Origin: Thermoplasmata archaeon
GTDB taxonomy: Archaea > Thermoplasmatota > Thermoplasmata > Lutacidiplasmatales > UBA184
NCBI GenBank assembly: GCA_028864975.1
Contig: JAGWLG010000009.1
Location: 1 to 64,000 of the forward strand
Direction: 5' to 3'
DNA length: 64,000 nucleotides
This document shows, in pieces, positions 34,118 through 47,450 of the stretch (the stretch's first letter is position 1; the number at the start of each line of letters is the position of its first letter). A model generated the notes under the pieces. That model was not told the DNA's origin. It saw only the letters and a list, made by a program, of their open reading frames with translations, and ran no database searches. A program made the position numbers and the translations under genes.

Positions 34118-34152
34118 CCGACAAGAATAGGCCGCTCGAAGGTCGACACCCT

Positions 34153-34383
34153 ATGGCCGTGGACCCAGGCGCAGCTATGCTCGCCATCGCCGCATCGATC
34201 GCCATCGCGGGAGGACTTATCGGGACGGGCATGGCCCAGTCCGGTATCGGCGCCTCCGGGATGGGTATCATCGCGGAGCGGCCCGAGAAGTTCGGTCAAG
34301 TGCTCGTGTTCTTCGTGATCCCCGAGACGCTATGGATCCTAGGTTTCGTACTAGGGATCCTGCTGCTCCTGCAGATCCTCTGA
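34153..34383 (+). CDS. atpK: A-type ATP synthase proteolipid subunit K (c)
   Basis: This 76-residue membrane protein has two helices: MLAIAASIAIAGGLIGTGMA and QVLVFFVIPETLWILGFVLG. The second contains the ion-carrying glutamate (Glu58 in IPETL), and the GIGASGMGIIAERPEKFG loop is the rotor contact. A single-hairpin c subunit of this size argues for a standard high-copy ring. No clear extra sodium-binding residues (such as a Q-x-x-x-T pair) are seen, so protons are the likely ion. Confidence 0.93.
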   Translation: MAVDPGAAMLAIAASIAIAGGLIGTGMAQSGIGASGMGIIAERPEKFGQVLVFFVIPETLWILGFVLGILLLLQIL

Positions 34384-34422
34384 ACCGCTCCGTCCGGAGA
34401 GCGGGAGCGTGAGGCCCAACCG

Positions 34423-34980
34423 ATGACCCTCGACTCGCTCGTCAAGGAGATCGAGACCCGCTCCGCGAAGGAGGTTCGGGAGCTCGAAGCGAAGCTCGAG
34501 GGCGAGCGCCGGGCCATCGAGGAAACCGCCCGCACCGAGTCCGAGCGGATGCGCGCGGAATCGGAGAAGAAGGCCCAGATCGAGGCCGCCCGGGAGAAGG
34601 CGCGGCTCGTCGCCTCGGCCAAGCTGCAAGCGAAGAAGGTCCTCTTCGAGGCCCGTGAGAAGCGGACCGCGGCCGCCCTGGAGGAGGTCCGGCTTCGCCT
34701 CGGGGCCTACGCGAAGGGTCCCGAGTACGGGCCCTTGCTTTCCGGGATGGTCTCGGCCGGCAGCACAGCCCTCGGCGGCGACGTCCGCATCCTCGCCCGA
34801 CCGGAGGACGTGTCGCTCCTCCCGGCCAAGATGCGCGCCCTGGTCGACACCGCGCGACCGCTCCGCGGCATGGGGGGGCTCGTGGTGGAGAAGAAGGACG
34901 GGAGCCGGTCGCTCAACTTCACCTTCGAAGAGCTGCTCCGCCTCCGTGAGGACCGGGTCCGGGAGATCCTCTCCCGCTAG
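34423..34980 (+). CDS. atpE: A-type ATP synthase subunit E
   Basis: This 185-residue peripheral-stalk subunit has a long charged N-terminal coiled coil (about residues 1-75, rich in E/K/R/A). A globular C-terminal domain follows with GGDVRILARPEDVSLLP and GGLVVEKKDGSRSLNFTFEE, matching subunit E. It pairs with subunit H, encoded in the opposite cluster 8 kb away. Confidence 0.88.
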   Translation: MTLDSLVKEIETRSAKEVRELEAKLEGERRAIEETARTESERMRAESEKKAQIEAAREKARLVASAKLQAKKVLFEAREKRTAAALEEVRLRLGAYAKGPEYGPLLSGMVSAGSTALGGDVRILARPEDVSLLPAKMRALVDTARPLRGMGGLVVEKKDGSRSLNFTFEELLRLREDRVREILSR

Positions 34981-35010
34981 GGACGCGAAGAAGGGGGGCC
35001 CCCGCGGTCG

Positions 35011-36081
35011 ATGGACACCTACGCCTCCTCCCTGGGACGCATCAAGGCGACCGTCCCCGGGTTCCTTCGGAAAGACCTCTTCAACGCCCTCCTCGCTGCC
35101 CGGGACATCGGCGAAGTGGCGAAGCTCCTCGAGGGGACCTGGTACGGCGGGGAGATCACGCAGGCGATGGGGGCGCTCACGGGGGCCGAGGCGCTCGAGG
35201 TCGCGGTGAACCGTCAGTTCGTAAAGCTCAACCGCTTCGCCTACAACGCCTCTCCCTTCGCGGGGCGTCCCGTGGTGGGGGCGTACCTCCGTCGCTGGGA
35301 CATCGAGAACATCGGCGTCATCCTCTCCGCGAAGGCCTACGGGCGGTTGGTCTCCGAAGGGGAGAGCTTCCTCGTCTCCGACCGCGAGACCCCGGCGGGG
35401 CTCTCCGCCGGACTGCTCTCGATCGACGACCTGAGGGTCCTCTTGTCCCAGTCGTCCGTCGAGGGCGTCGCGAACCAGCTGGTCAAGTTCGGCTACGGGA
35501 CGGTCCTGCTCCAGCAGCTGGATGCGTTCAACACGAACCGCGACATCTTCCCGCTCATCCAGGCGCTGGAGAAGCAGTACTACGAGCAGCTCCTCGCCAT
35601 GGCCCGGTTCTTCCAGGGGGACGAGTGGGTCGTGCGCCAGTATCTCGCCAACGAGCTCGACGTCCGTAACCTGATGACGGTCCTCAAGGCCAAGGACCGG
35701 AAGATCGCCCTCGACGACGTCTCGCCGCTCTTCTTGGACGGGGGCACGTTCACCCAGAAGGCGCTGAGCGACCTCTCCAACCTCGCGAGCGTCCAGGAGA
35801 TCGTCGGGTCGGTCGGCTCGGCCGTGCCGCTCGCCGACGGGGTGCCGAGCTACACGGAGAACGGGAGCTTGACCGGGTTCGAGCTCGCGATGAAGCGGCA
35901 GCAGGCGGAGAAGAACCTGGTCCGGATGCGCCAGTACCCCCTCTCGCTCGCAGGCATCTTCGGGTTCCTCCTCCAGGCCGAGGTCGAGCGATCCGACTTG
36001 AGGAAGATCGTCTACGGAAAGGTCTACGGATGGTCCGGCGACCGGATCTCGAAGGACCTCATCTCGACGAAGCTAGCGTGA
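35011..36081 (+). CDS. atpC: A-type ATP synthase subunit C (central stalk, V-type d)
   Basis: This 356-residue, mainly helical protein links the rotor ring to the central stalk. YASSLGRIKATVPGFLRKDL, YLRRWDIENIGVILSAKAYG and YLANELDVRNLMTVLKAKDR show the three-fold repeat of the V-ATPase d/C family, closing with LAGIFGFLLQAEVERSDLRK. It is the last gene of the rightward ATPase cluster. Confidence 0.9.
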   Translation: MDTYASSLGRIKATVPGFLRKDLFNALLAARDIGEVAKLLEGTWYGGEITQAMGALTGAEALEVAVNRQFVKLNRFAYNASPFAGRPVVGAYLRRWDIENIGVILSAKAYGRLVSEGESFLVSDRETPAGLSAGLLSIDDLRVLLSQSSVEGVANQLVKFGYGTVLLQQLDAFNTNRDIFPLIQALEKQYYEQLLAMARFFQGDEWVVRQYLANELDVRNLMTVLKAKDRKIALDDVSPLFLDGGTFTQKALSDLSNLASVQEIVGSVGSAVPLADGVPSYTENGSLTGFELAMKRQQAEKNLVRMRQYPLSLAGIFGFLLQAEVERSDLRKIVYGKVYGWSGDRISKDLISTKLA

Positions 36082-36267: not shown

Positions 36268-37512
36268 GTGGAACGCCGCCCTCTCATTGTTCTCTCCCTC
36301 TACCAACTGCTCTCGAGCAACCGCGGAGGGTTGTTCACCGTCTACTTCGTGCTCTTCCTGGCCAAGGACAAGGGGTCGTCGATCGCCGAAGGGTTGGTCA
36401 TCCTCTCGGCGGCGTACGTCGGAGCGAGCCTCATCGGACCGCTCGTCGGGAGATGGTCGGACTCCCTAGGTCGCCGCCGTCCGTTCCTCCTCGTGGGGGA
36501 GGTCGGCTCCCTGCCGCTCTTCCTCGCCGTCCCGTTCCTTCCCGGGTTCCTCCTTGCAGGCGCAGCGTTCGTGGCGGCCGAGGTGGTCCTGGCCTTCGGT
36601 TCTCCTGCGGTGAACGCCTTCGTCGCCGACGTGACGGGGGCGAAGGAGCGAGGTTGGGGATACGGGCTCCTCCAGGCGACGGGGGCCGCGGGAGCGATCG
36701 CAGGATTCCTTGTCGCAGGCTACCTCGTCGATCGCTTCGGCTACGTCGTCCTGTTCTACATGGTCGCGGCGGTGATGGTCGGCACCATCTCGATCGTTCT
36801 CTTCTTCGTTCCCGATACGAGAACGGCCCCGAGTGCGTCGCGCCGCCCCTGGCGGGAGCTCAAGGGCGTGGGGATCTTCTCGACCACGGTCTCCATCCGC
36901 GCGCTAGGAGCGGGAGCCGTGGTCACCTTCTATGGCGTGTACGCGGCCACCCTCGGCGCGAGCGCCTTCGAGATCAGCCTCATCGCCATCGCAGGGCTCG
37001 TCGTCACCGCCCTGCTCTCGGTGCCTCTAGGTCGCGTGGTCGATCGCATCGGAGAGGTCCAGGGGATGGTCTGGGGGACGACCATCAGCATCGTGGCCAT
37101 GGTCCTCTACCTCCTCGCTACGCGTTGGGAGGAGCTGGTCCCGGCCCGCGCGACCTACCAGGTCGGGTTTGCGCTGATGAATCCCGCGATGCTCTCGTGG
37201 GTGGCCCGGATCGCCCCGGAGGCGCGACGCGCGGAGTACCTGGGCTTCTTCGCTTTGATCAACTCGACGCTCTGGAGCTTGGGCCCGTTCGTCGGGGGGA
37301 TCGCGTACCAGCTCGCCGGGCCCTTCGGGCTCTTCCTCTTCGCCATCGTCGCCACGGTCATCTCGCTGGTCGCAATCGAGCTGATCTACGTGATCAGGGA
37401 GCGGCGGTGTCGGTCGGACCCTGATGTGCCGAGGAAGGAGAGCGGGCCGTCCAGCGCTGAGAGGCCGTCGGGCGCCGCAGCCCACGACCCTCTCAGGTCG
37501 AGCGGTGGGTGA
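36268..37512 (+). CDS. MFS transporter
   Basis: This is a 414-residue major-facilitator permease with twelve predicted helices. The cytosolic loop 2-3 motif is VGRWSDSLGRRRPF (the G-x-x-x-D-x-x-G-R-R-R signature of drug/proton antiporters and sugar exporters), echoed in the second half by LGRVVDRIGEVQG. A charged cytosolic tail follows. Multidrug or sugar export is likely; the substrate is unknown. It starts with GTG behind a palindromic promoter, suggesting a ligand-responsive repressor. Its 3' end overlaps the opposing gene by 20 bases. Confidence 0.85.
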   Translation: MERRPLIVLSLYQLLSSNRGGLFTVYFVLFLAKDKGSSIAEGLVILSAAYVGASLIGPLVGRWSDSLGRRRPFLLVGEVGSLPLFLAVPFLPGFLLAGAAFVAAEVVLAFGSPAVNAFVADVTGAKERGWGYGLLQATGAAGAIAGFLVAGYLVDRFGYVVLFYMVAAVMVGTISIVLFFVPDTRTAPSASRRPWRELKGVGIFSTTVSIRALGAGAVVTFYGVYAATLGASAFEISLIAIAGLVVTALLSVPLGRVVDRIGEVQGMVWGTTISIVAMVLYLLATRWEELVPARATYQVGFALMNPAMLSWVARIAPEARRAEYLGFFALINSTLWSLGPFVGGIAYQLAGPFGLFLFAIVATVISLVAIELIYVIRERRCRSDPDVPRKESGPSSAERPSGAAAHDPLRSSGG

Positions 37513-38332
37513 AGCCCCCGTTCTTGGGCCAGCTCTTCGAAGAGATGAGCGGAGGGAGCTTCTCGAGCGCCTGGAGCTCCTTCTGCCCGAGCTGCATCAG
37601 ATACATCCCCGAGGGCAGGAGCCGGAGGCTCCTTTCCTCCGGATCGTTCAAGAGCCGGAAGCTGAACCCGTCCACCCCTCCCTTGGCCTCGGTCGTGTAC
37701 CCCGAAACCTCCCAATCCTGGAGCACCTTCGTCAGGAAGGCTTCGAGCGCCCCACCCTTCCCGAGCGTGAAGAACGCTTGGGCGTGGATCCCCTTCCCTC
37801 CCGGAGCCAGGAAGAAGACCGGAGCCGCGGAAAGGGCACGTTCGCGCCCCTGGGTCACCTGGGTATCCGGGCCCTCCCCCACCGTCGGAAGCGCCCGGAC
37901 CTCGAGCGGGCTGCCCGGCGCACCGCGGATCTCCTTCAGCACCGAGTGCACCTTCTCGATCTCACCGTGGACATCGGCCACCGCGACGCCGTGCTGGGCC
38001 ATGTCCCGGCGGATGCTCTCCAGAGCGCCTCGAAGACGGCCGATCTCCGACCGGAGCAGCCGTGCGGTCTCCGTTCCGGGGGACTTGGCGGCCCGGGATC
38101 TGGGGGATTGGGACGATACCGAATCCTCGGCACCCGAGGGAGCACCCGACGAAGGCGGCAGTACCGCGGGCGTGTTCAGAAGTTCCGCGATCTCCCGCTC
38201 GAGGTCCTCTAACCCTGCCGGCGGGTCCTGCGTCCCATCTGACACCTCCGAAGGAAGGTCGCGGGGATCGGGCGACGCTCGGCGGTTCGCCGTGAACCGC
38301 TCGTCGGGCGTACCTGGCTCATCCCCAGGCAT
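37493..38332 (-). CDS. Hypothetical protein with central coiled coil
   Basis: This 279-residue protein reads from ATG 38332, 28 bases from a TATA element (CGTTTATC, 38357-38364, minus strand). The first 90 residues are Ser/Pro-rich and probably disordered. A coiled coil follows (TARLLRSEIGRLRGALESIR to HGEIEKVHSVLKEI). The last 130 residues form an alpha/beta domain (PVFFLAPGGKGIHAQAFFTL, LTKVLQDWEVSGYTTEAKGG, SGMYLMQLGQKELQALEKLP). I recognise no family. It is divergent from the equally unfamiliar 526-residue gene, with about 116 bases between. Confidence 0.65.
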   Translation of the reverse strand: MPGDEPGTPDERFTANRRASPDPRDLPSEVSDGTQDPPAGLEDLEREIAELLNTPAVLPPSSGAPSGAEDSVSSQSPRSRAAKSPGTETARLLRSEIGRLRGALESIRRDMAQHGVAVADVHGEIEKVHSVLKEIRGAPGSPLEVRALPTVGEGPDTQVTQGRERALSAAPVFFLAPGGKGIHAQAFFTLGKGGALEAFLTKVLQDWEVSGYTTEAKGGVDGFSFRLLNDPEERSLRLLPSGMYLMQLGQKELQALEKLPPLISSKSWPKNGGFTHRST

Positions 38333-38448
38333 ACGGAGGTGCACGTACGCCCTGGTGATAAACGTTGGGTCGCAATTCTGGCCAGGAGCTCGTCTACGGA
38401 TTCCGGAGCCTCACCCCTGCGGCCGTCAGACTTTCAAGCTCCGAGAAG

Positions 38449-40029
38449 ATGCCCGGCTTTCCCATGGCCGCTCCGACCGGAGGAACCTCGTGGTCGGTGC
38501 CGGTGCTCCACGGTCCTTCCAGCGTTGATAACCTGCTCACGACCCTGGTCGCATGGGCCCGCCATCGCGGGAGGAACCCTCGCTCTTTCTATCTCAGCCT
38601 GGAGAACGACGGACGAACCCTCATGCTGCGGGGATTCGACCTCCCGCTCCTAAAGGACTTCCTCCGGTACGCCGAGTACAGTTCCGTACCGGCTTTGGAG
38701 TGCGGCCGCCCGACGGAGATCGCGGCGCCCTCTCCCGCATCCGCTTCCCTCCAGGAGGTGGTGGCCCCTGGCCCTCCACCCGCGCCGACGCCGTCGGCAG
38801 CGCCGACCCCCACGCGACCTCCCACGCTCTCGTCCTCGTCGATCCAGATGGTCCTCGGTACCGCACAGCTACTGGCGGACCGTTCCACCGACGTGCATAG
38901 CGCCGAGCACTGGGTGACCTCGATTCTCGCGACCCCGGACCTCAAACCGGAGGAGGTGGGTCTGCTGCTCAGGCTCATGCACGAACCGGAGCCGGAGGCG
39001 CTCCGTCTCGCGCTCGCCGAGAACTCGACCCTGCGCTCGCAGGGCGAGGCCCTCATGAAGGTCCCGTGCGAACAGATCCCCGACACCCTTCAAGCGTGGC
39101 TGGGTACGCCCAACCCTCCTCCTTCGGCTACGCCCGCGACGAACGCTCCTCCGTCTTCCGCACCGCCCTCTCCTCCGGCCGCTGCCGCAGACCCCGGATC
39201 GAAGAAGAAGGTCCGTCGGACAGCGCCCGTCGAGAGCGCTTCGGTCCCCACGCCCCCACCCCAGACCCCTGCACCGCCTCCACGCCCTACGGACAACGAG
39301 GTCCTGCTCCGCGTGCAGATCTTCGCGCGTGGTCTCGAGGCTCGGGCCCAGCACTGGCGCGAGGTCGCCTCCCGCCTCCGGGCAAGCCTGGCGCAAGGTT
39401 TCCCCGGGTTGGTGAGCGTGCTCGAGGGAGCGGTCTTCATCAACGAGGAGGAGCCGCGGGTCTCTTGGGTCGTGCCTCACAACAACTCAGCCGTGGTCAA
39501 GACCATCACCGGCTACGTGCACGAGTCGCACCAGCTCCTCCGGGAGGAGGCGACCCGACGTGCCACGGAGTCCGGGAGCTGGGTGGGGGAAGCGCGGCGC
39601 GAGACCTACGCGGCCCTCGAAACTGCCCGACGGAGCACCCAGCTCGCTCTCCGCCTGGGGGTCGAGCTCCGCTGGGTCGTGCTGCTCTCGACCGACTTCA
39701 ACGATGGCAAGGAGGAGGGGCTGGGTCTGCCCCTGGGAACCCGTCCACCGTGGGAAGGGACGCCTCCTCCCCCGACAGTGCCAACACTAGGATCTCCTTC
39801 CAAGACGACCCTCAAGAAGAAGGTCGTGCCCCTGGGCCCGCCAGCGCTCGCTCGGTTCTCCTCGGACATGGACGCCCCGCTGGAAGCCTGGCTGGAGAAG
39901 GGCGGGATCAAGGTCGGACTGCTGAGCCCCTCTGCCACGGCCGCGAATGTCGCCCCGCCGCCATCAACGGCGGTGCCCAAGGTGCCAACGACCGCAACCG
40001 TCGTGAGACCGGCTGCGCCGACCGCGTAG
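38449..40029 (+). CDS. Large hypothetical protein with Pro/Ala-rich linkers
   Basis: This is a protein of 526 residues from ATG 38449 (a TTG at 38365 would add 28). Three structured parts are separated by Pro/Ala/Thr linkers: an N-terminal domain (LLTTLVAWARHRGRNPRSFY, RTLMLRGFDLPLLKDFLRYA), a middle helical domain (about residues 120-210) and a longer domain at about 280-400 (LLRVQIFARGLEARAQHWRE, ARRETYAALETARRSTQLAL). The tail is again low-complexity. No enzyme or membrane motif is visible. It lies between the two halves of the ATPase locus and ends 12 bases from the atpI stop. Confidence 0.6.
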   Translation: MPGFPMAAPTGGTSWSVPVLHGPSSVDNLLTTLVAWARHRGRNPRSFYLSLENDGRTLMLRGFDLPLLKDFLRYAEYSSVPALECGRPTEIAAPSPASASLQEVVAPGPPPAPTPSAAPTPTRPPTLSSSSIQMVLGTAQLLADRSTDVHSAEHWVTSILATPDLKPEEVGLLLRLMHEPEPEALRLALAENSTLRSQGEALMKVPCEQIPDTLQAWLGTPNPPPSATPATNAPPSSAPPSPPAAAADPGSKKKVRRTAPVESASVPTPPPQTPAPPPRPTDNEVLLRVQIFARGLEARAQHWREVASRLRASLAQGFPGLVSVLEGAVFINEEEPRVSWVVPHNNSAVVKTITGYVHESHQLLREEATRRATESGSWVGEARRETYAALETARRSTQLALRLGVELRWVVLLSTDFNDGKEEGLGLPLGTRPPWEGTPPPPTVPTLGSPSKTTLKKKVVPLGPPALARFSSDMDAPLEAWLEKGGIKVGLLSPSATAANVAPPPSTAVPKVPTTATVVRPAAPTA

Positions 40030-40041
40030 GCCGATGTTCCC

Positions 40042-42141
40042 CTAGCTTGGGGGGGTCGGGGTCGGCGGGGGCACGGGTGCGGTCGTCGCCACGGCAGGGT
40101 GCTGAGGCAGTGTGAAGCTCCGCCGACCCCCGAAGGGCTTGAAGGGCTTGCCGTTCCCGGTGTAGAACTTGGAGAAGTACTCCACGTACATCAGCCGGGC
40201 CCCTTGGATCCCGGGCTCGAACACTCCGACGACGATGTTGAACACCGCCCCGACAAGGACCAAGACCACGGCCATCACGGCGTAGCCCACTCCGTGCGTG
40301 ATCATCGCGGTCTGTCCGTTCCCCCCCAGGACCGCGATGGAGTTGATGACGTAGGCCAGGATGACCGAGGCGAGGAGGATCCCCACGAGCCGTGCGTACG
40401 AAAGGACGTGGCTCACGATCGAGGGTAGCTCGATCGCTGCCAGACCCCCCTCGGTCAGGATGATCGTCGGGACCATTGCGACCGTGATGGCGATGAGGAC
40501 GTACTGGAACGGCTGGAAGGCGAGCGCGCTCGGACTGGGGTTGTTCGGCGTGATGAGCCAGGAGCCCGGGTAGGGGTGGTGGATGAGGGATAGCCCGAGG
40601 AGGGTGATCCCCCACGCGATCACGATCCAGGCGACCTTTCCGACGGCGTGCCTCGTCTCGTGGTGGAAGAGCTTGTTGAGCGCCCCGAAAACGAGGCCCA
40701 GCGTCACGGTGGCGAGCCCGATGTAGACGGAAAGGAGGAGGAGCTTCGCAATGTACGTGACCTGGCCGGGGAGGCTCCCCTTCCCGGGCCACAGGGCGAA
40801 GTCGAAGTGGTTCCCCGTGAGCTGCGCCAGAGAGAAGCCGAAGTACGCGTCGAACCCGACTCCCACGAAGATCCCGATGAGGCATCCGGGGACGAGGCAC
40901 TTCGCCAGCTGCTTCATCGCCGGAGCGGGCATGACCATCGTCGTGAACCGCACCAGGAACCCCGGTACAAGCGTCGGACCCGCCTTGGGGTTCCCGATCC
41001 GCCAGATCATCCAGAGGCAGACGGCGAGGATAAACGCCGCGTAACCGGCGTCGCCGATCATCAGCCCGAAGAAGAACGGGAAGACCACGGCGAAGACCAT
41101 CGTCGGGTCGATCTCGTCCGCCATCGGGAGCGAGAAGAAGCGGATGAAGAACTCGAAGACGTTCGTCCCCTTCGGGTTCCGCATCATCGTTGGGGCGTCG
41201 CCGGTCGCGGCGATGTCGTAGAGCTCCGTCCGGCCTCCGGTCACGCGCTCAAGCTCCGCGCGGAGACGAGGAACCTCGGGGGTCGGAACGAACCCCTCCA
41301 GGGCGAAAGCGTTCTTCGCGCCCGCGAGGCGGCCGTGGATGTCCGCCTTGCGGGCCTCCACCTGAAGCTGTTCCTCGATCGGGAGGATGGTGGCGTACCA
41401 TTCGTCCGAGATGCGACGAAGGCGCCCCTTCACCGCCGCGAGCTTCCCCTCGACATCGGCGAGCTCCTTCTCCAGACGCGGGACGAGCTCGCGAGGCGTC
41501 CCCTGGAGGTCAGGGGCGGCTGTGAGCCGCACGGAGTGCTTCTGGGCGAGCCGTCCGAACGCGTCCGCCCGCGCGCGCGGGACGGCGACCACGAAGCGGA
41601 CCTGCTTGGGAAGGGCCTCCTCGACGAACAGGACCTCGTGGGAGAGGGCGGCAACCTCCTCCCGGAAGGGCGCATACCGGTCGGTGGGGGACTCGCCGAG
41701 GTAGGAGAGGAGGCTGCGGGCCGTGAGGAGCGAGAGGTCCTCTGGGAAGAAGGCATACTCCCGGGCCAGCCGCAGATTGTCCTGGAGGACCTTGCGCTCT
41801 GTCAGGAGGCCATCCTCCTCGCGCTTCGCGGCGCGGACCTCCTCGTCGATCGTCATCTTGCTGGCCGCGCGCAGGAGCGCGGGGATGTCGGCGAAGTGCA
41901 CCCGCTTCTCGACGCGAACGGGTGGGAGCGCGGCCACGAGGGCCTTGAACCGCAGCAGCTCCTCGGCGAGCTTGCGGTGTTCCTCTCCGGCCCGCTCCGG
42001 GACCAGATGCGCCAACGCCTCCTTGCTGATCGCCTCGACCTGGACTACGCCCCGGTCGTGCAGGAACGAGAGGATCCGGTCCTCGTCGTCCCTCAGGCCC
42101 ACCAGGGCCACGCGAGACATCGGGGTCGGTCGAAGCGACAT
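40042..42141 (-). CDS. atpI: A-type ATP synthase subunit I (V-type a)
   Basis: This 699-residue subunit forms the ion half-channels against the K ring. The N-terminal 330 residues are cytosolic with coiled coils; the C-terminal half has about eight helices, beginning near VFAVVFPFFFGLMIGDAGYA. The channel arginine is not certain by eye but should lie in the late helices around the YARLVGILLASVILAYVINS stretch. A Pro/Thr-rich tail ends the protein. ATG 42141 fits the conserved start MSRVALVGLRDDEDRILSFL seven residues later. Confidence 0.9.
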   Translation of the reverse strand: MSLRPTPMSRVALVGLRDDEDRILSFLHDRGVVQVEAISKEALAHLVPERAGEEHRKLAEELLRFKALVAALPPVRVEKRVHFADIPALLRAASKMTIDEEVRAAKREEDGLLTERKVLQDNLRLAREYAFFPEDLSLLTARSLLSYLGESPTDRYAPFREEVAALSHEVLFVEEALPKQVRFVVAVPRARADAFGRLAQKHSVRLTAAPDLQGTPRELVPRLEKELADVEGKLAAVKGRLRRISDEWYATILPIEEQLQVEARKADIHGRLAGAKNAFALEGFVPTPEVPRLRAELERVTGGRTELYDIAATGDAPTMMRNPKGTNVFEFFIRFFSLPMADEIDPTMVFAVVFPFFFGLMIGDAGYAAFILAVCLWMIWRIGNPKAGPTLVPGFLVRFTTMVMPAPAMKQLAKCLVPGCLIGIFVGVGFDAYFGFSLAQLTGNHFDFALWPGKGSLPGQVTYIAKLLLLSVYIGLATVTLGLVFGALNKLFHHETRHAVGKVAWIVIAWGITLLGLSLIHHPYPGSWLITPNNPSPSALAFQPFQYVLIAITVAMVPTIILTEGGLAAIELPSIVSHVLSYARLVGILLASVILAYVINSIAVLGGNGQTAMITHGVGYAVMAVVLVLVGAVFNIVVGVFEPGIQGARLMYVEYFSKFYTGNGKPFKPFGGRRSFTLPQHPAVATTAPVPPPTPTPPS

Positions 42142-42166
42142 CTTGGATCCCTCGCGATGGGGTCGA

Positions 42167-42619
42167 TCACCGCGCGGGCACGGCGACAGTGGCCTTGGCG
42201 CCGCTTGCGGGGGCCTTCGCGGGTTCGCTCGTGACACGGGGGGTGTTCGGACGGAGGTCAGCGAAGACCGCCGACAGGATCTCGTCCAGCCGGTCCTCCA
42301 GCTCCCTGGCTCCGAACGAGCCCAAACGTCCGACCTCGACCTTCGCTTCTTCGACGATCTTGCGAGCTTCCACCTCGGCCTGGGCCCGGGCCTCGCGGAG
42401 CCGGGACGAACGGATCTCCTCCGCCACGCGTCGGGCGTCGGCCAAGGCCCGGTCCCGGGCAGCTTGGGCGTACTTGATCTTCGTCTCCCCTCGGGAACGG
42501 GCGTCCTCCAGCCTCTTCTGCCAGGTCGACTCGGTCTCCTTCAGTCGTCGGAGGCTCCCCACGGCGGCGGGGGGGACCGTGGAAGTGGTCGCGTGGCCTT
42601 CCTTCTCCTCAGCGCTCAT
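42167..42619 (-). CDS. atpH: A-type ATP synthase subunit H (peripheral stalk)
   Basis: This 150-residue protein is dominated by a charged coiled coil (SLRRLKETESTWQKRLEDAR through EARAQAEVEARKIVEEAKVE). It fits the subunit that pairs with subunit E to form the peripheral stalk. An Ala/Pro-rich tail follows. Sequence similarity in this family is weak, so the assignment rests on coiled-coil character, length and position between atpD and atpI. Confidence 0.75.
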   Translation of the reverse strand: MSAEEKEGHATTSTVPPAAVGSLRRLKETESTWQKRLEDARSRGETKIKYAQAARDRALADARRVAEEIRSSRLREARAQAEVEARKIVEEAKVEVGRLGSFGARELEDRLDEILSAVFADLRPNTPRVTSEPAKAPASGAKATVAVPAR

Positions 42620-42645
42620 GCTTCTCGGCTCGCTCCCTCTCTCAT

Positions 42646-42774
42646 CTAGTGGCTCAGTACGTGGACCAGTACCCCGGCGAAGACGCCCAAGAGCCCCATG
42701 CGGACCAGGGAAAAGGCCCGGCGGACCCTCCAGTAGCGCCACGCTCCCTCGTTCGGGAACTCAAGCGGCGACAT
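42646..42774 (-). CDS. 42-residue predicted membrane protein in the ATPase operon
   Basis: ATG 42774 overlaps the end of atpD by 14 bases, and the frame ends 26 bases before atpH. The N-terminus is amphipathic (SPLEFPNEGAWRYWRVRR), followed by one hydrophobic helix (AFSLVRMGLLGVFAGVLVHV). The position, coupling to atpD and clean single-helix design argue for a real gene. It could be a small accessory subunit or assembly factor of the ATPase; nothing in the sequence proves this. Confidence 0.6.
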   Translation of the reverse strand: MSPLEFPNEGAWRYWRVRRAFSLVRMGLLGVFAGVLVHVLSH

Positions 42775-43474
42775 CAGCCACCTCCCGGCGGGGACGGGAC
42801 CGGATCTCGCCCGCGCTCCGCTCTTCGGCCGGCGTCTCCGCGATCTCCTTCGCCTCGCGCTCCATCTTCCGCTTGACGCTCTTGAGCATCGCGAACGAGT
42901 CGCGCTCCATCTCATCGAAGCGGAACTTGATGTAACGGACCGTGTTGTTGAGCCTCGGCAGCACGACGTTCTCGATCGCGTTCGCCCTCCGCTTGGTCTT
43001 GTCGATCTCCTGGAGCAGACGGCGCATGGCGTTCTCCTTCTCGGCGACCGCCAGGACGACCTTGTAGATCTCCTGGTACCGGCGCAAGGACTCGTCCACG
43101 CTCGCCGGGAGATGGAGCAGGGCCTGGGCCTCCTTCGGGGAGTAGACCTCGCCCTGGAGCGAGGGGGTCTTGACCCCCATGACGTTGCGGCTCGCGATCT
43201 TCATCGCGGCCAGGGTCGGCAGCATCATCGAGATGTTCTCGAGGCGGATCGGCCCCTCGAACATCTCGGCCTTCCGGATGGCGTCGTAGCCCTCCTCGAA
43301 GCGCCGCCGCAGGTCGCCCCTGAGCTCGAAGGCCTGTTTCGCGATCGTCCGGAACTCGAGGATGAGGGCGGCGCGCTTGAGCTTGAGGAGCTTCAACCCC
43401 TTCCGTGCGAGGACGATCCTTCGCTTCGTGCGGATCAGCTCGATCCGCGTCGGTCGGATCGTTTCGCCTGGCAT
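42761..43474 (-). CDS. atpD: A-type ATP synthase subunit D (central rotor shaft)
   Basis: This 237-residue protein forms the long antiparallel coiled coil that turns inside the A3B3 head. IRPTRIELIRTKRRIVLARK and GLKLLKLKRAALILEF at the start, and ENAMRRLLQEIDKTKRRANA with IENVVLPRLNNTVRYIKFRF at the end, are the conserved terminal helices. The last 35 residues are a charged tail. Its start at 43474 follows atpB by 29 bases. Confidence 0.93.
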   Translation of the reverse strand: MPGETIRPTRIELIRTKRRIVLARKGLKLLKLKRAALILEFRTIAKQAFELRGDLRRRFEEGYDAIRKAEMFEGPIRLENISMMLPTLAAMKIASRNVMGVKTPSLQGEVYSPKEAQALLHLPASVDESLRRYQEIYKVVLAVAEKENAMRRLLQEIDKTKRRANAIENVVLPRLNNTVRYIKFRFDEMERDSFAMLKSVKRKMEREAKEIAETPAEERSAGEIRSRPRREVADVAA

Positions 43475-43503
43475 GCCCTTCCCTTCGACGTCCGTCCGTC
43501 GGA

Positions 43504-44916
43504 TCAGGCCACCTTGGCCGGGGCGGGTTTGCGGTACTTCTGGATGTACTCGGGCTTGATCTTCTTGAGCTCGCGCTCGGGCAGCTCGGAGAGGACGTCC
43601 CATCCGATGCTGAGGGTCTCCTCGATGCTCCGGTCCTCGTCGTAGCCCTGGTTGATGAAGCGTTTCTCCAGTTTCTCGGCAACCCGTAGGTAGATGCGTC
43701 CCTCGGGGGTGAGCGCCTCCTCTCCCACGATCTGAGAAAGGGCCCTCTGGTCCTTTCCCTCGGCATAGCTCGAGAAGAGCTGGTCCTTGAGCCCGGCGTG
43801 GTCCTCGCGCGTCTTACCCTTGCCGATGCCCAAGCTCATGAGGCGGGAGAGCGAGAGCGACACGTCGATCGGAGGGTAGACGCCCCGTCGGTGCAGGTCG
43901 CGGCCCATCTCGGTCTGACCCTCGGTGATGTAGCCCGTAAGGTCGGGGATGGGATGCGTGCGGTCATCCGCCGGCATGGTCAGGATGGGGAACTGCGTGA
44001 TCGAGCCCTTTCGGCCCTTCATCCTCCCAGCCCGTTCGTAGATCTGGGCCAGGTCCGTGTACATGTATCCCGGATACCCGCGTCGTCCCGGAACCTCCTC
44101 GCGAGCGGCAGAGATCTCCCGAAGAGCCTCGCAGTAGTTCGTCATGTCGGTGAGGACGACCAGGACGTGCATGTCGCGCTCGTAGGCGAGGAACTCCGCG
44201 GTGGTGAGCGCCATGCGTGGCGTGATCACCCGCTCCATCGCGGGGTCGGAGGAGATGTTCAGGAAAACCACCGTTCGCTCGAGCGCACCCGTGCTCTCGA
44301 ACTCCCGTGTGAAGTAGTTCGCCTCCTCGCTCGTGATCCCCATCGCTCCGAAGACGACGGCGAAGTTCTCCGACGAGTTCAACACCTTCGCTTGCCGGAC
44401 GATCTGGGCGGCGACCTGATTATGGGGCATCCCCGCGCCGGAGAAGATCGGGAGCTTCTGGCCCCGGACGAGGGTGTTCATCCCGTCGATGGCGCTGATC
44501 CCCGTCTGGATGAACTCCGAGGGCTGGTCGCGAGAGTAGGGGTTCATCGCGTTCCCGACGATCTCGAACTTCTCCTTCGACACGATCTTGGGGCCGCCAT
44601 CGCGAGGCTGACCGAGTCCGTCGAAGACGCGCCCGAGCATCTCGTCGGAGCAGGCGAGCCGGGCGACATCGCCGGAGAACTTGACCGTGGTCGCGGTATC
44701 GTTCATCCCCAGGGTCGGTCCGAACACTTGGATGATGGCCAGACCACGTCGGGACTCGAGCACCTGGCCCGTACGGGTGACCCCGTCGGGTAGGGTGATC
44801 TCGACGATCTCCCCGTAGGCGGCGTTCGAGACCCCTTCCACGAAGAGGAGGGGCCCCGCGATACGTTCGATCGTTCGGTAGTCTACGGGCACGGGGGGCA
44901 GTGTGGAAGCGCTCAT
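43504..44916 (-). CDS. atpB: A-type ATP synthase subunit B (non-catalytic)
   Basis: This is a 470-residue regulatory head subunit. It has the family hallmarks: [40 protein letters not shown] (a degenerate P-loop with no GKT), [34 protein letters not shown] and [20 protein letters not shown]. It overlaps atpA by four bases (ATGA). Confidence 0.96.
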
Positions 44917-46679
44917 GACCCGACCTCCTTGACCAGCTGAGAGAGTTGGGCCGACGCCTCCCGTTCGACCGCCTCGATCGCTGCGAGCCCGCCCTTCTCG
45001 CTCGTGGTCTTCATTCGAGCGATGCTCGTTCGAGCGGGGAGCTGGGCGATCTTCCGGACCGGGACGCCCTTGTTGACCGCTTCCACCTCCTTGCGGCCGA
45101 AGTCGAGGATGGTCTTGAGCATCCGATACTGCTTCGCGATCGACGCGTAGGTATCGATGTCGTCGTAGGCGCTTTGCTGAAGGTAGTCCTCTCGGATCAT
45201 CCGGGCGGTGTCGAGGACCGCCTTCTCCTTCTCTTGGAGGGCGTCCTCCCCTACGAGCTGGACGATCTCCTTCAGGGACGCTTCCTTGTCGAGGATCTCG
45301 AGCGCTTCCTTGCGAAGATCGATCCACTCCTTCGAGACCTTCTCGTTGTACCACGGAGCGAGATCGTCGGTGTAGAGGGAATAGCTCGTCAGCCAGTTGA
45401 TCGCTGGATAGTGTCGGCGGCTGGCGAGGTCGAAATCGAGGGCCCAATAGACCCGCGTGGCGCGCAAGGTGTTCTGGGAGACCGGCTCGCTGGTGTCACC
45501 GCCCGGCGGGCTCACCGCACCGATGACGCTGATCGAACCCTGGCGCTCTGGAGCGCCGATGACCACGACCTGACCGGCCCGCTCATAGAACTCCGCCACC
45601 TTTCGGCCCAGGTAGGCCGGGTAGCCCTCCTCCCCGGGCATCTCCTCAAGACGGCCCGAGATCTCTCGCAGCGCCTCGGCCCACCGTGAGGTGGAGTCGG
45701 CCATCAGCGCCACATCGAACCCCATGTCACGATAGTACTCCGCAAGGGTGATCCCCGTGTAGACGCTCGCCTCACGGGCGGCCACGGGCATGTTGGAAGT
45801 GTTGGCGATCAGGATCGTCCGCTCCATGAGCGGGCGCTTGGTCTTAGGGTCCTCGAGGTGGGGGAACTCGGTCAGCACCTCCGTCATCTCGTTGCCGCGC
45901 TCGCCGCAGCCGACGTAGACGACCACGTCGGCCTCGGCCCACTTCGCGAGCTGTTGCTGAGTGACCGTTTTTCCCGTCCCGAAGGCCCCAGGAATACATG
46001 CAGAGCCACCTTTAGCTAGAGGAAATAGCGTGTCGATGACCCTTTGTCCGGTAACTAGCGGTAATCGAGGAGGCAATTTCTTGGAAACTGGGCGGGGAAC
46101 TCGCACCTGCCATTTGTGGGAGAGACCGAGCGGGACGTTCCCTTTCGGGGTGTCGACCGAACCGATGGTCTGACGGATCGTGTACTTTCCGCTCGCCAGC
46201 TCTTTGATGGTGCCGGCAACGGTCGGAGGGACCAGGATGCGGTGCTGGATCAAGGGGGTCTCTTGCACCGTCCCGAGGACGTCCCCGCCGCGGACCGTCT
46301 CCCCGGGCTTCTTCGTGGCGGTGAACTCCCAGACGGTCTTCTCGTCGAGCGGGGTCGTTACGAACCCGCGCTGGATGAAGTCCCCCCCGGCGGCCTTCAG
46401 GACGTCGAGCGGTCGCTGGACCCCGTCGTAGATGGACTTGAGGAGGCCGGGACCCAGTTCGACCGAGAGGGCCTGTCCGGTGTTCTCCACCTTGTCGCCA
46501 GGTCGGATGCCGGTGGTCTCCTCGTAGACCTGGACCGTCGCGTCCCCCTCGACGAGCCGGATGATCTCCCCCACCAGGCCGAGCTCGCCCACGCGCACCA
46601 CATCGAACATGCGGGCGCCCTGAAGACCTTCGGCGATGACGACGGGGCCGGACACTTTGGTGACCACGGGTTCGGTCAT
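44913..46679 (-). CDS. atpA: A-type ATP synthase subunit A (catalytic)
   Basis: This 588-residue catalytic subunit has P-loop [69 protein letters not shown] and the A-specific insertion between residues 115 and 190. No intein is present at the P-loop. Roughly 45967-46120, encoding the P-loop and about 45 residues before it, is clearly poorer in GC (51% over 45981-46080 by count, against 68% in 45861-45960) and uses codons such as TTA, CTA and AGG, unlike the rest of the gene. The protein itself is normal there. Confidence 0.97.
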
Positions 46680-46689
46680 GGACTTTCCA

Positions 46690-47037
46690 TCAAGGAGACG
46701 CGAGCCGGTCGAGGGAGACCCCGAGCACGCGCTTGGTGAGGGAGGCGACGCTCTCCGGCTCCTCTCCAGCCCCGGGGGTGGGGAGGAAAACGACGAGCGG
46801 GTCGATGGATTGCTCGGCCGCCTTCCGGAGGTTCTCGGGAAGCACGTTCTGGATCTTCCGGCTCGCGAGGATCAGGCTGTGCATCCCGGACTCGAAGACC
46901 TTCTGGAAGTCGCGGGAGGCGGAGCGCTCGTCGGTGATGACCGTGTCTCGGACGCCGATCAAACGGAAGCCGATGACGAGCTCCCGTTCTCCGATCACGG
47001 CGGGGGGCTTGCCGCCCGCGGGCTTCTCGGCTGGCAC
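46690..47037 (-). CDS. atpF: A-type ATP synthase subunit F
   Basis: This is a 115-residue central-stalk regulatory subunit. VIGERELVIGFRLIGVRDTV at the start and FESGMHSLILASRKIQNVLP in the middle are characteristic, with the Rossmann-like small domain typical of the family. It is the first gene of the leftward ATPase cluster. The ATG at 47037 is 28 bases from a TATA box, so translation is probably leaderless. Confidence 0.88.
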   Translation of the reverse strand: MPAEKPAGGKPPAVIGERELVIGFRLIGVRDTVITDERSASRDFQKVFESGMHSLILASRKIQNVLPENLRKAAEQSIDPLVVFLPTPGAGEEPESVASLTKRVLGVSLDRLASP

Positions 47038-47171: not shown

Positions 47172-47450
47172 TCACTTGTAGGTCGAGTGGTGGACGTTCC
47201 CTTCGTCGTCCGTGATGTCGATGCACTCGCCTTCGCACTCGAAGAGGCAGGCCTCGCAGACGATGCATTCGGGGCCGTTGACCGCGACGGACTTCTCTCC
47301 TCGGAACCGGAACTTCGCCGCGACCTCGGCGTCGTCCACCATCCCGGGGAACTCCGAGGTCGGTTTGAGCTCGAAGACGTTGACCGGGCAGACATCCCGG
47401 CAGTGGGCGCATCCCGTACACTTTTCGGTCTTGATGTCGACGGTTACCAT
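47172..47450 (-). CDS. 2[4Fe-4S]-type ferredoxin
   Basis: This 92-residue electron carrier has CTGCAHCRDVCP as the first cluster motif and CIVCEACLFECEGECI as the second, separated by about 45 residues with a loop insertion (PTSEFPGMVDDAEVAAKFRF). The longer spacing and second-site form resemble the zinc-less archaeal 7Fe/8Fe ferredoxins that serve 2-oxoacid oxidoreductases. The partner is not in the window. It is monocistronic with its own TATA box (CCTAAATAGG at 47485-47494). Confidence 0.88.
   Translation of the reverse strand: MVTVDIKTEKCTGCAHCRDVCPVNVFELKPTSEFPGMVDDAEVAAKFRFRGEKSVAVNGPECIVCEACLFECEGECIDITDDEGNVHHSTYK

Follow-up and report, generated by a model that had tools for sequence, protein, structure and literature searches.

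In eukaryotic V-ATPases, the accessory subunit e of the membrane sector is small and hydrophobic, about 70-80 aa long and with two helices. For archaea, we take the gene for AhaG to lie after ahaD in Methanosarcina mazei, which agrees with the 'ahaA-ahaG operon' of PMC4350412. AhaG is described there as a 6.3-kDa product with a very hydrophobic peptide, the membership of which in the enzyme is disputed (PMC4350412), and a 2013 study reported acid-mine Thermoplasmatales and T. acidophilum to be without an AhaG orthologue in its statement on this gene (PMC3750248). In their passages on the acid-type archaeal ATPase, PMC6863869 and PMC9287336 count nine subunits. According to the former, entire operons for this enzyme passed between acidophilic archaea, the transfer being credited with the entry of several archaeal phyla into acid habitats; expression in E. 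coli of the operon, for which nine subunits are described, improved growth at pH 4.5 and 5.0 (PMC6863869). The gene order given for most Thermoplasmatota orders is H/GIKECFABD, with D last, whereas Lutacidiplasmatales, in which UBA184 is placed, have FABDH/GICEK, and their ATPase groups with the acidophilic V-type (PMC9287336). The operon descriptions of both accounts list nothing between D and H; the window, by which we mean the whole 64,000-nt stretch of Thermoplasmata archaeon (UBA184) DNA analysed, has one there, and it sits in the same class of nine-subunit operon.

This gene, which we call X, is a 42-aa frame on the minus strand at positions 42646-42774 (MSPLEFPNEGAWRYWRVRRAFSLVRMGLLGVFAGVLVHVLSH), with an ATG start and a TAG stop. 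An earlier note made from the letters of the window had placed a 42-residue frame at this position, overlapping atpD by 14 bases and lying 26 before atpH; it gave no strand, and this placement holds. X starts 14 nt within the 3' end of atpD, which runs from 43474 to 42761 on the minus strand, and a gap of 26 nt separates its stop from the atpH start at 42619. Immediately 5' of the X ATG, within the end of atpD, lies a Shine-Dalgarno-like stretch (42775-42795, minus strand; GGGAGGTGG). It contains GGAGGTG, a 7-nt match found in the window and three genus-mates, and the sequence upstream of the ATG reads GGGAGGTGGCTG. An ATG at 42643, adjoining the X stop and in frame with atpH, is a possible true start of the latter.

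The ATPase genes of the window form two converging groups on opposed strands, unlike the published FABDH/GICEK order. K-E-C occupies 34144-36081 on the plus strand: atpK for ring subunit c (34144-34383; PF00137, E 3.9e-13), atpE for peripheral-stalk subunit E (34423-34980; PF01991, E 1.5e-12) and atpC for subunit C/d (35011-36081; PF01992, E 3.6e-47). F-A-B-D-X-H-I occupies 40042-47037 on the minus strand, beginning with atpF for subunit F (46690-47037; PF01990, E 6.2e-13) and atpA for catalytic subunit A (44913-46679; PF00006, E 6.3e-75). The ORF at 43504-45447, the start of which is unrefined since as listed it extends back into atpA, holds what is presumably atpB for subunit B, named from its translation. 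Next come atpD for central-stalk subunit D (42761-43474; PF01813, E 1.8e-49), X, atpH for peripheral-stalk subunit H/G (42167-42619) and atpI for membrane subunit I/a (40042-42141; PF01496, E 3.4e-22; start put at 42141 and unrefined). The name atpH rests on position together with a TIGR02926 AhaH match (E 5.7e-6) of 26.5 bits, below the cut-off of 48.5. Between the two halves, an MFS transporter is encoded at 36268-37512, along with two ORFs that match no Pfam family (37493-38344, minus strand; 38365-40029, plus strand), and a small ferredoxin-like 4Fe-4S protein is encoded just upstream of atpF (47172-47450, minus strand).

The earlier note had expected relatives to keep the frame with changes biased toward synonymous ones, and had named a broken frame, or equally frequent synonymous and non-synonymous changes, as grounds for dropping the idea. 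In the window's family the frame turned out to be widely kept and its changes clearly biased. We searched 103 genomes of this family, which includes Thermoplasmata archaeon UBA184, and 90 of them had atpD at E 1e-20. All 90 contributed to a set of 92 loci, of which one (L061) was set aside because its atpD is truncated by the end of the contig. The remaining 91 loci come from 89 genomes, with two loci each from G031 and G082; in one locus (L168) masked bases in atpD shift its apparent stop. A single-helix ORF follows atpD in 84 of these 91 usable loci. The 84 ORFs are 32-63 aa long (median 42) and have a hydrophobic stretch; in 82 cases the ORF shares 8-23 nt with the end of atpD, always in the same relative frame. 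When the DNA behind atpD was dinucleotide-shuffled 100 times for each of the 84 loci, such an ORF arose in 15 of 8400 cases (0.18%). A Shine-Dalgarno-like match of at least 5 nt precedes 77 of the 84 starts; the share among control positions within atpD is about 6%, although this control is imperfect because the end of atpD is rich in glutamate codons.

Selection was assessed in 16 independent close pairs that were gapless, of equal length and 3-30% divergent; no sequence entered more than one pair, and none of the pairs came from the genus of the window. The dN/dS of X was 0.36 (143.3 synonymous changes over 554 sites and 136.7 non-synonymous over 1276), compared with 1.31 and 2.72 in the other two frames, and substitutions fell on the three codon positions as 81, 44 and 155 (chi-square p 1.4e-15). 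Three pairs had values above 1 (L054/L055, 1.50; L056/L059, 1.46; L161/L165, 1.06), and four further pairs gave 0.52-0.56. Compared with its three genus-mates, the X of the window has 12-16 changed and 8-12 silent codons out of 35, a signal that is weak in the genus alone. Across the family, the pattern of change indicates that X is under purifying selection.

Not every member of the family has X. It is absent from all four usable loci of one genus, g3 (L037, L040, L041, L062), where atpH comes directly after atpD, and also from L090 and L166. In L089, the seventh locus failing our rule, an X-like peptide is encoded without an ATG, GTG or TTG start. We looked for a second copy in the six genomes lacking X at atpD and found none that was convincing: the best matches (E 0.004-0.03) lay in frames of 203-509 aa, the one at E 0.004 in the 509-aa frame, and two genomes gave no match. 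We read these absences as loss and, since no second copy accompanies them, the ATPase can therefore do without X. As a natural loss, g3 could show what X does.

The earlier note had also proposed a single transmembrane helix, and the prediction stands: the Kyte-Doolittle maximum of X in the window is 1.94, with one helix, and AlphaFold2, run with a 38-sequence alignment, gives a single helix over residues 9-41 (mean pLDDT 87.1), while being silent on partners. The predicted membrane protein has a basic N-terminal stretch, WRYWRVRR, and carries a conserved basic residue, R25, in its helix. In the family, the mean net charge is +3.0 on the N-terminal side and +0.5 on the C-terminal side; the N side is the more positive in 81 of 84 sequences and the less positive in none. 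By the positive-inside rule, the more positive side of a membrane protein faces the cytoplasm, and the N-terminus of X is therefore predicted to be cytoplasmic. One position of the helix, mostly preceded by R-R-F, holds K or R in 79 of 80 non-redundant family sequences and N in the remaining one. Over 93 acid-group sequences the same position has K in 45, R in 34, N in 13 and Q in one, i.e. one of these four residues in 93/93, although the aligner may have favoured this position for the N and Q rows. Lying near the cytoplasmic face, this basic residue would be the likeliest point of functional contact.

Known families offered little to compare with X. No Pfam or NCBIfam model matched X of the window at E≤1, and a PDB profile search gave nothing below E 0.15. 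A Pfam scan of 38 aligned X sequences touched three families with one member each (best E 0.0042, DUF3742), which we consider unconvincing, and the match of Pfam PLDc_N to one class-level ORF (26.1 bits, cut-off 23.3) was judged to be compositional and left unused. A short-protein search with X returned G001-G003 at about 1e-12 and G004, G014, G019 and G009 at 3.5e-7 to 4.7e-4; the rest was noise, so that this search reaches near relatives only. Our literature search, confined to open-licence papers, found none naming X.

To what extent X occurs outside the family was addressed in 123 further usable loci, in which our rule found a hydrophobic ORF behind atpD in 59 and none in 64. Those without one include Micrarchaeota (L237, L238, L240, L241, L248, L251), Archaeoglobales (L268) and methanogens (L256, L258, L266, L267, L272-L274). 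A profile built from family X sequences only matched seven of the 59 ORFs at E 4.5e-7 to 2e-4, and two more (L229, L233) at 0.01-0.02, whereas none of 339 hydrophobic decoy ORFs scored better than E 2. Four of the seven belong to other Thermoplasmata (L234, L235, L064 and the Cuniculiplasma genome of L236), and the others to Ca. Gagatemarchaeum stordalenia (L230), a Nitrososphaerota archaeon (L231) and L232, the protein of which is identical to that of L231. The family-only profile misses several ORFs next to atpD that we assigned by eye to the acid group (L188, L191, L192, L239, L242, L246 and L065; E 0.5 to 32). Most copies from the Gagatemarchaeum phylum score weakly with it: E is about 1e-5 for three, near 0.03 for two and 0.4-9.4 for six, the best A-type ORF being at 12. 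With wider X profiles, the only decoy to score was L271 (E 0.0002-0.0005), a Woesearchaeote ORF some 100 nt behind atpD.

A control was provided by the class to which the genome of L230 (G182) belongs, with acid-type defined here by atpD identity alone. Of 200 genomes of this class, 177 had atpD; it was window-like (50-57% identity) in 46, at 44% in two, and at ≤32% in the other matches listed. Using an X profile built from Thermoplasmatota rows only, we detected X behind the window-like atpD in 42/46 genomes at E<0.1 and in 45/46 at E<1, and in the last (L373, E 1.9) the X pattern is plain by eye. The two genomes with 44% atpD have a 41-aa single-helix ORF (E 0.088 and 0.19). Behind the other type of atpD (A-type; ≤32% identity), X was found in 0 of 26 loci, sampled from at least 129 (best E 13), nor did the same rule give any hydrophobic ORF in these 26. 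Five genomes (G618, G651, G673, G598, G695) combine the two kinds of atpD (L353/L381, L362/L382, L369/L379, L371/L380, L373/L378), and in each X stands behind the window-like one only. A wider sample of the phylum gave X in 9/9 window-like loci, all nine being among the 46, and in 0 of 21 others sampled out of many. Since related genomes are not independent, Fisher values for this co-occurrence are overstated. X stays behind atpD across different operon layouts, and inspection by eye gave the gene order D-X-H-I for L230, L284, L287, L234 and L236. In other words, X, as judged from these searches, goes with the acid-type ATPase in distant archaeal groups. This co-occurrence, taken with the operon transfer described in PMC6863869, suggests that X was transferred together with the operon. 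In one small genome, G183, two window-like atpD genes are each followed by X (L276, L283), which points either to two operons or to a mixed bin.

The earlier note had called X an overlooked membrane protein of the ATPase operon. We agree: as far as sequence comparison can tell, X is a real gene that has been overlooked, is kept by selection and is tied to the acid-type ATPase. The note had also set X beside subunit e and regarded small single-helix parts as non-standard in archaea. The likeness to subunit e, as a small hydrophobic protein, can be kept, with the difference that X has one helix predicted by AlphaFold2 and matches no Pfam family; the archaeal half of the statement was incomplete, as AhaG, of disputed membership, is an archaeal precedent in the same place. 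Like X, AhaG of M. mazei is small, has one hydrophobic stretch and comes directly after D. We surveyed AhaG-like ORFs, identified by place and size only, in Methanosarcinaceae, the family of G184 (30 loci for 55 matching genomes; L333 was not located). Such a single-helix ORF of 54-60 aa, compared with 42 aa in X, follows atpD in 25 of 29 loci and has a core like RWAWLISL; L282, L314, L317 and L321 are without it. There is no significant sequence similarity between the two. An AhaG profile from 17 Methanosarcinaceae sequences matched 0/93 acid-group sequences at E<0.01, the best decoy being at 0.011; a wider AhaG profile matched one of the 93 (E 0.0045), but also two of 339 decoys below 0.01; and the hhalign profile-profile comparison of X with AhaG gave a probability of about 1%. 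Homology of X to AhaG is thus unsupported by either approach, and by these comparisons AhaG is the closest precedent of X by place, not by sequence.

Small single-helix ORFs also follow atpD in other Thermoplasmatota. Of 39 such ORFs, among them a few repeats of one genome, 15 score E<0.01 with the AhaG profile, the strongest at 7e-15. They share the place, size and single helix of X without matching it. AhaG may therefore be far more widely distributed than the cited papers suggest. Loci with small ORFs of this AhaG-profile type include L111, L189, L190, L175, L117, L075, L083, L181 and L182, among others. Moreover, the AhaG slot holds X or an X-like ORF in the Cuniculiplasma genome and in several other Thermoplasmata. 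If X fills this slot in acid-mine Thermoplasmatales and T. acidophilum too, as it does in the sampled Cuniculiplasma genome, the statement of PMC3750248 on AhaG absence would need revising. Whether AhaG is a true subunit is a question thereby reopened, and there are now two conserved families in which to test it.

What, then, might X do? The selected gene, its predicted helix, its charge asymmetry and its link to atpD and to one type of ATPase, as established by the comparisons above, lead us to propose, tentatively and at a little short of an even chance, that X belongs to the membrane sector of the acid-type V/A-ATPase as an accessory subunit with one helix. Because its start lies inside atpD, the synthesis of X would be coupled to that of rotor subunit D. 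Its basic N-terminus would lie in the cytoplasm and its one helix would cross the membrane, leaving almost nothing outside. The helix, which carries the conserved basic or amide residue shortly after its start, would pack against subunit I and/or the K ring, and X would stabilise or tighten the membrane sector under acid conditions. We infer membership of the complex from the facts that X is selected and goes with the cluster type, owing to which the ATPase probably has a part absent from its subunit lists. The main rival, on balance unlikely, is that X is an assembly factor which inserts or assembles the K ring or subunit I and is then released, in the manner of AtpI or Vma21. Assembly factors are often small membrane proteins, and the operon linkage, selection, co-occurrence and lineage losses fit such a role as well as that of a subunit. 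However, X follows atpD, the gene for the soluble rotor axle, and not atpK or atpI, and it has a single helix in place of the two of AtpI and Vma21. In the boldest reading, which we find improbable, X turns with D as part of the rotor, its helix filling the K-ring lumen beneath subunit C so that a membrane facing strong acid does not leak. In eukaryotic V-ATPases, the ring is filled by single helices of Voa1 and ATP6AP1/2, of which X would be the functional counterpart if this were true; turning with D would then explain why the two are encoded together.

Other roles have less to recommend them than an accessory subunit or an assembly factor. The small size of X and its basic N-terminus on the predicted cytoplasmic side would suit a regulator similar to cyanobacterial AtpTheta, preventing ATP hydrolysis or the backflow of protons under stress. 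AtpTheta is, however, reportedly an inhibitor of the F-type enzyme, a different type, and coupling to atpD implies a constant rather than a stress-switched supply, which makes such a regulator a doubtful proposition. It is just as doubtful that X anchors the peripheral stalk by tying the helix-less E/H stalk to the membrane. The order D-X-H, seen in the family and by eye in L230, L234, L236, L284 and L287, would agree with such an anchor, but AhaG, the positional counterpart of X, follows D at the end of its operon, and small single-helix ORFs are also present where D comes last, as in the H/GIKECFABD order given in PMC9287336; the tie is to atpD. We consider it very improbable that X is a device serving solely to couple translation of atpH to that of atpD. 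It does overlap atpD and lies shortly before atpH, but its amino acid sequence is selected, its helix and basic residue are kept, and it has homologues in another phylum. Finally, GC-rich DNA gives long spurious frames, here on the other strand too, yet a chance frame is refuted by the shuffles (0.18% versus 84/91 loci), by dN/dS and by the homology in another phylum. If X, as the preferred reading has it, belongs to the acid-type operon, published subunit lists and reconstitutions miss a part.

The place of X is occupied differently in A-type loci. In all 26 A-type loci examined in the class of G182 (L378-L382, L385-L397, L410-L417), it holds a charged, non-membrane, coiled-coil-like ORF of 41-50 aa, the start of which lies between 8 nt upstream and 4 nt downstream of the atpD end. 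In its treatment of the A-type ATPase of neutrophilic ammonia oxidisers, PMC6863869 states that no subunit H homologue is known, and the charged ORF is a candidate for this subunit. In Woesearchaeota (L254, L259, L265), a small single-helix ORF after atpD is followed, as judged by eye, by a membrane-pyrophosphatase-like gene.
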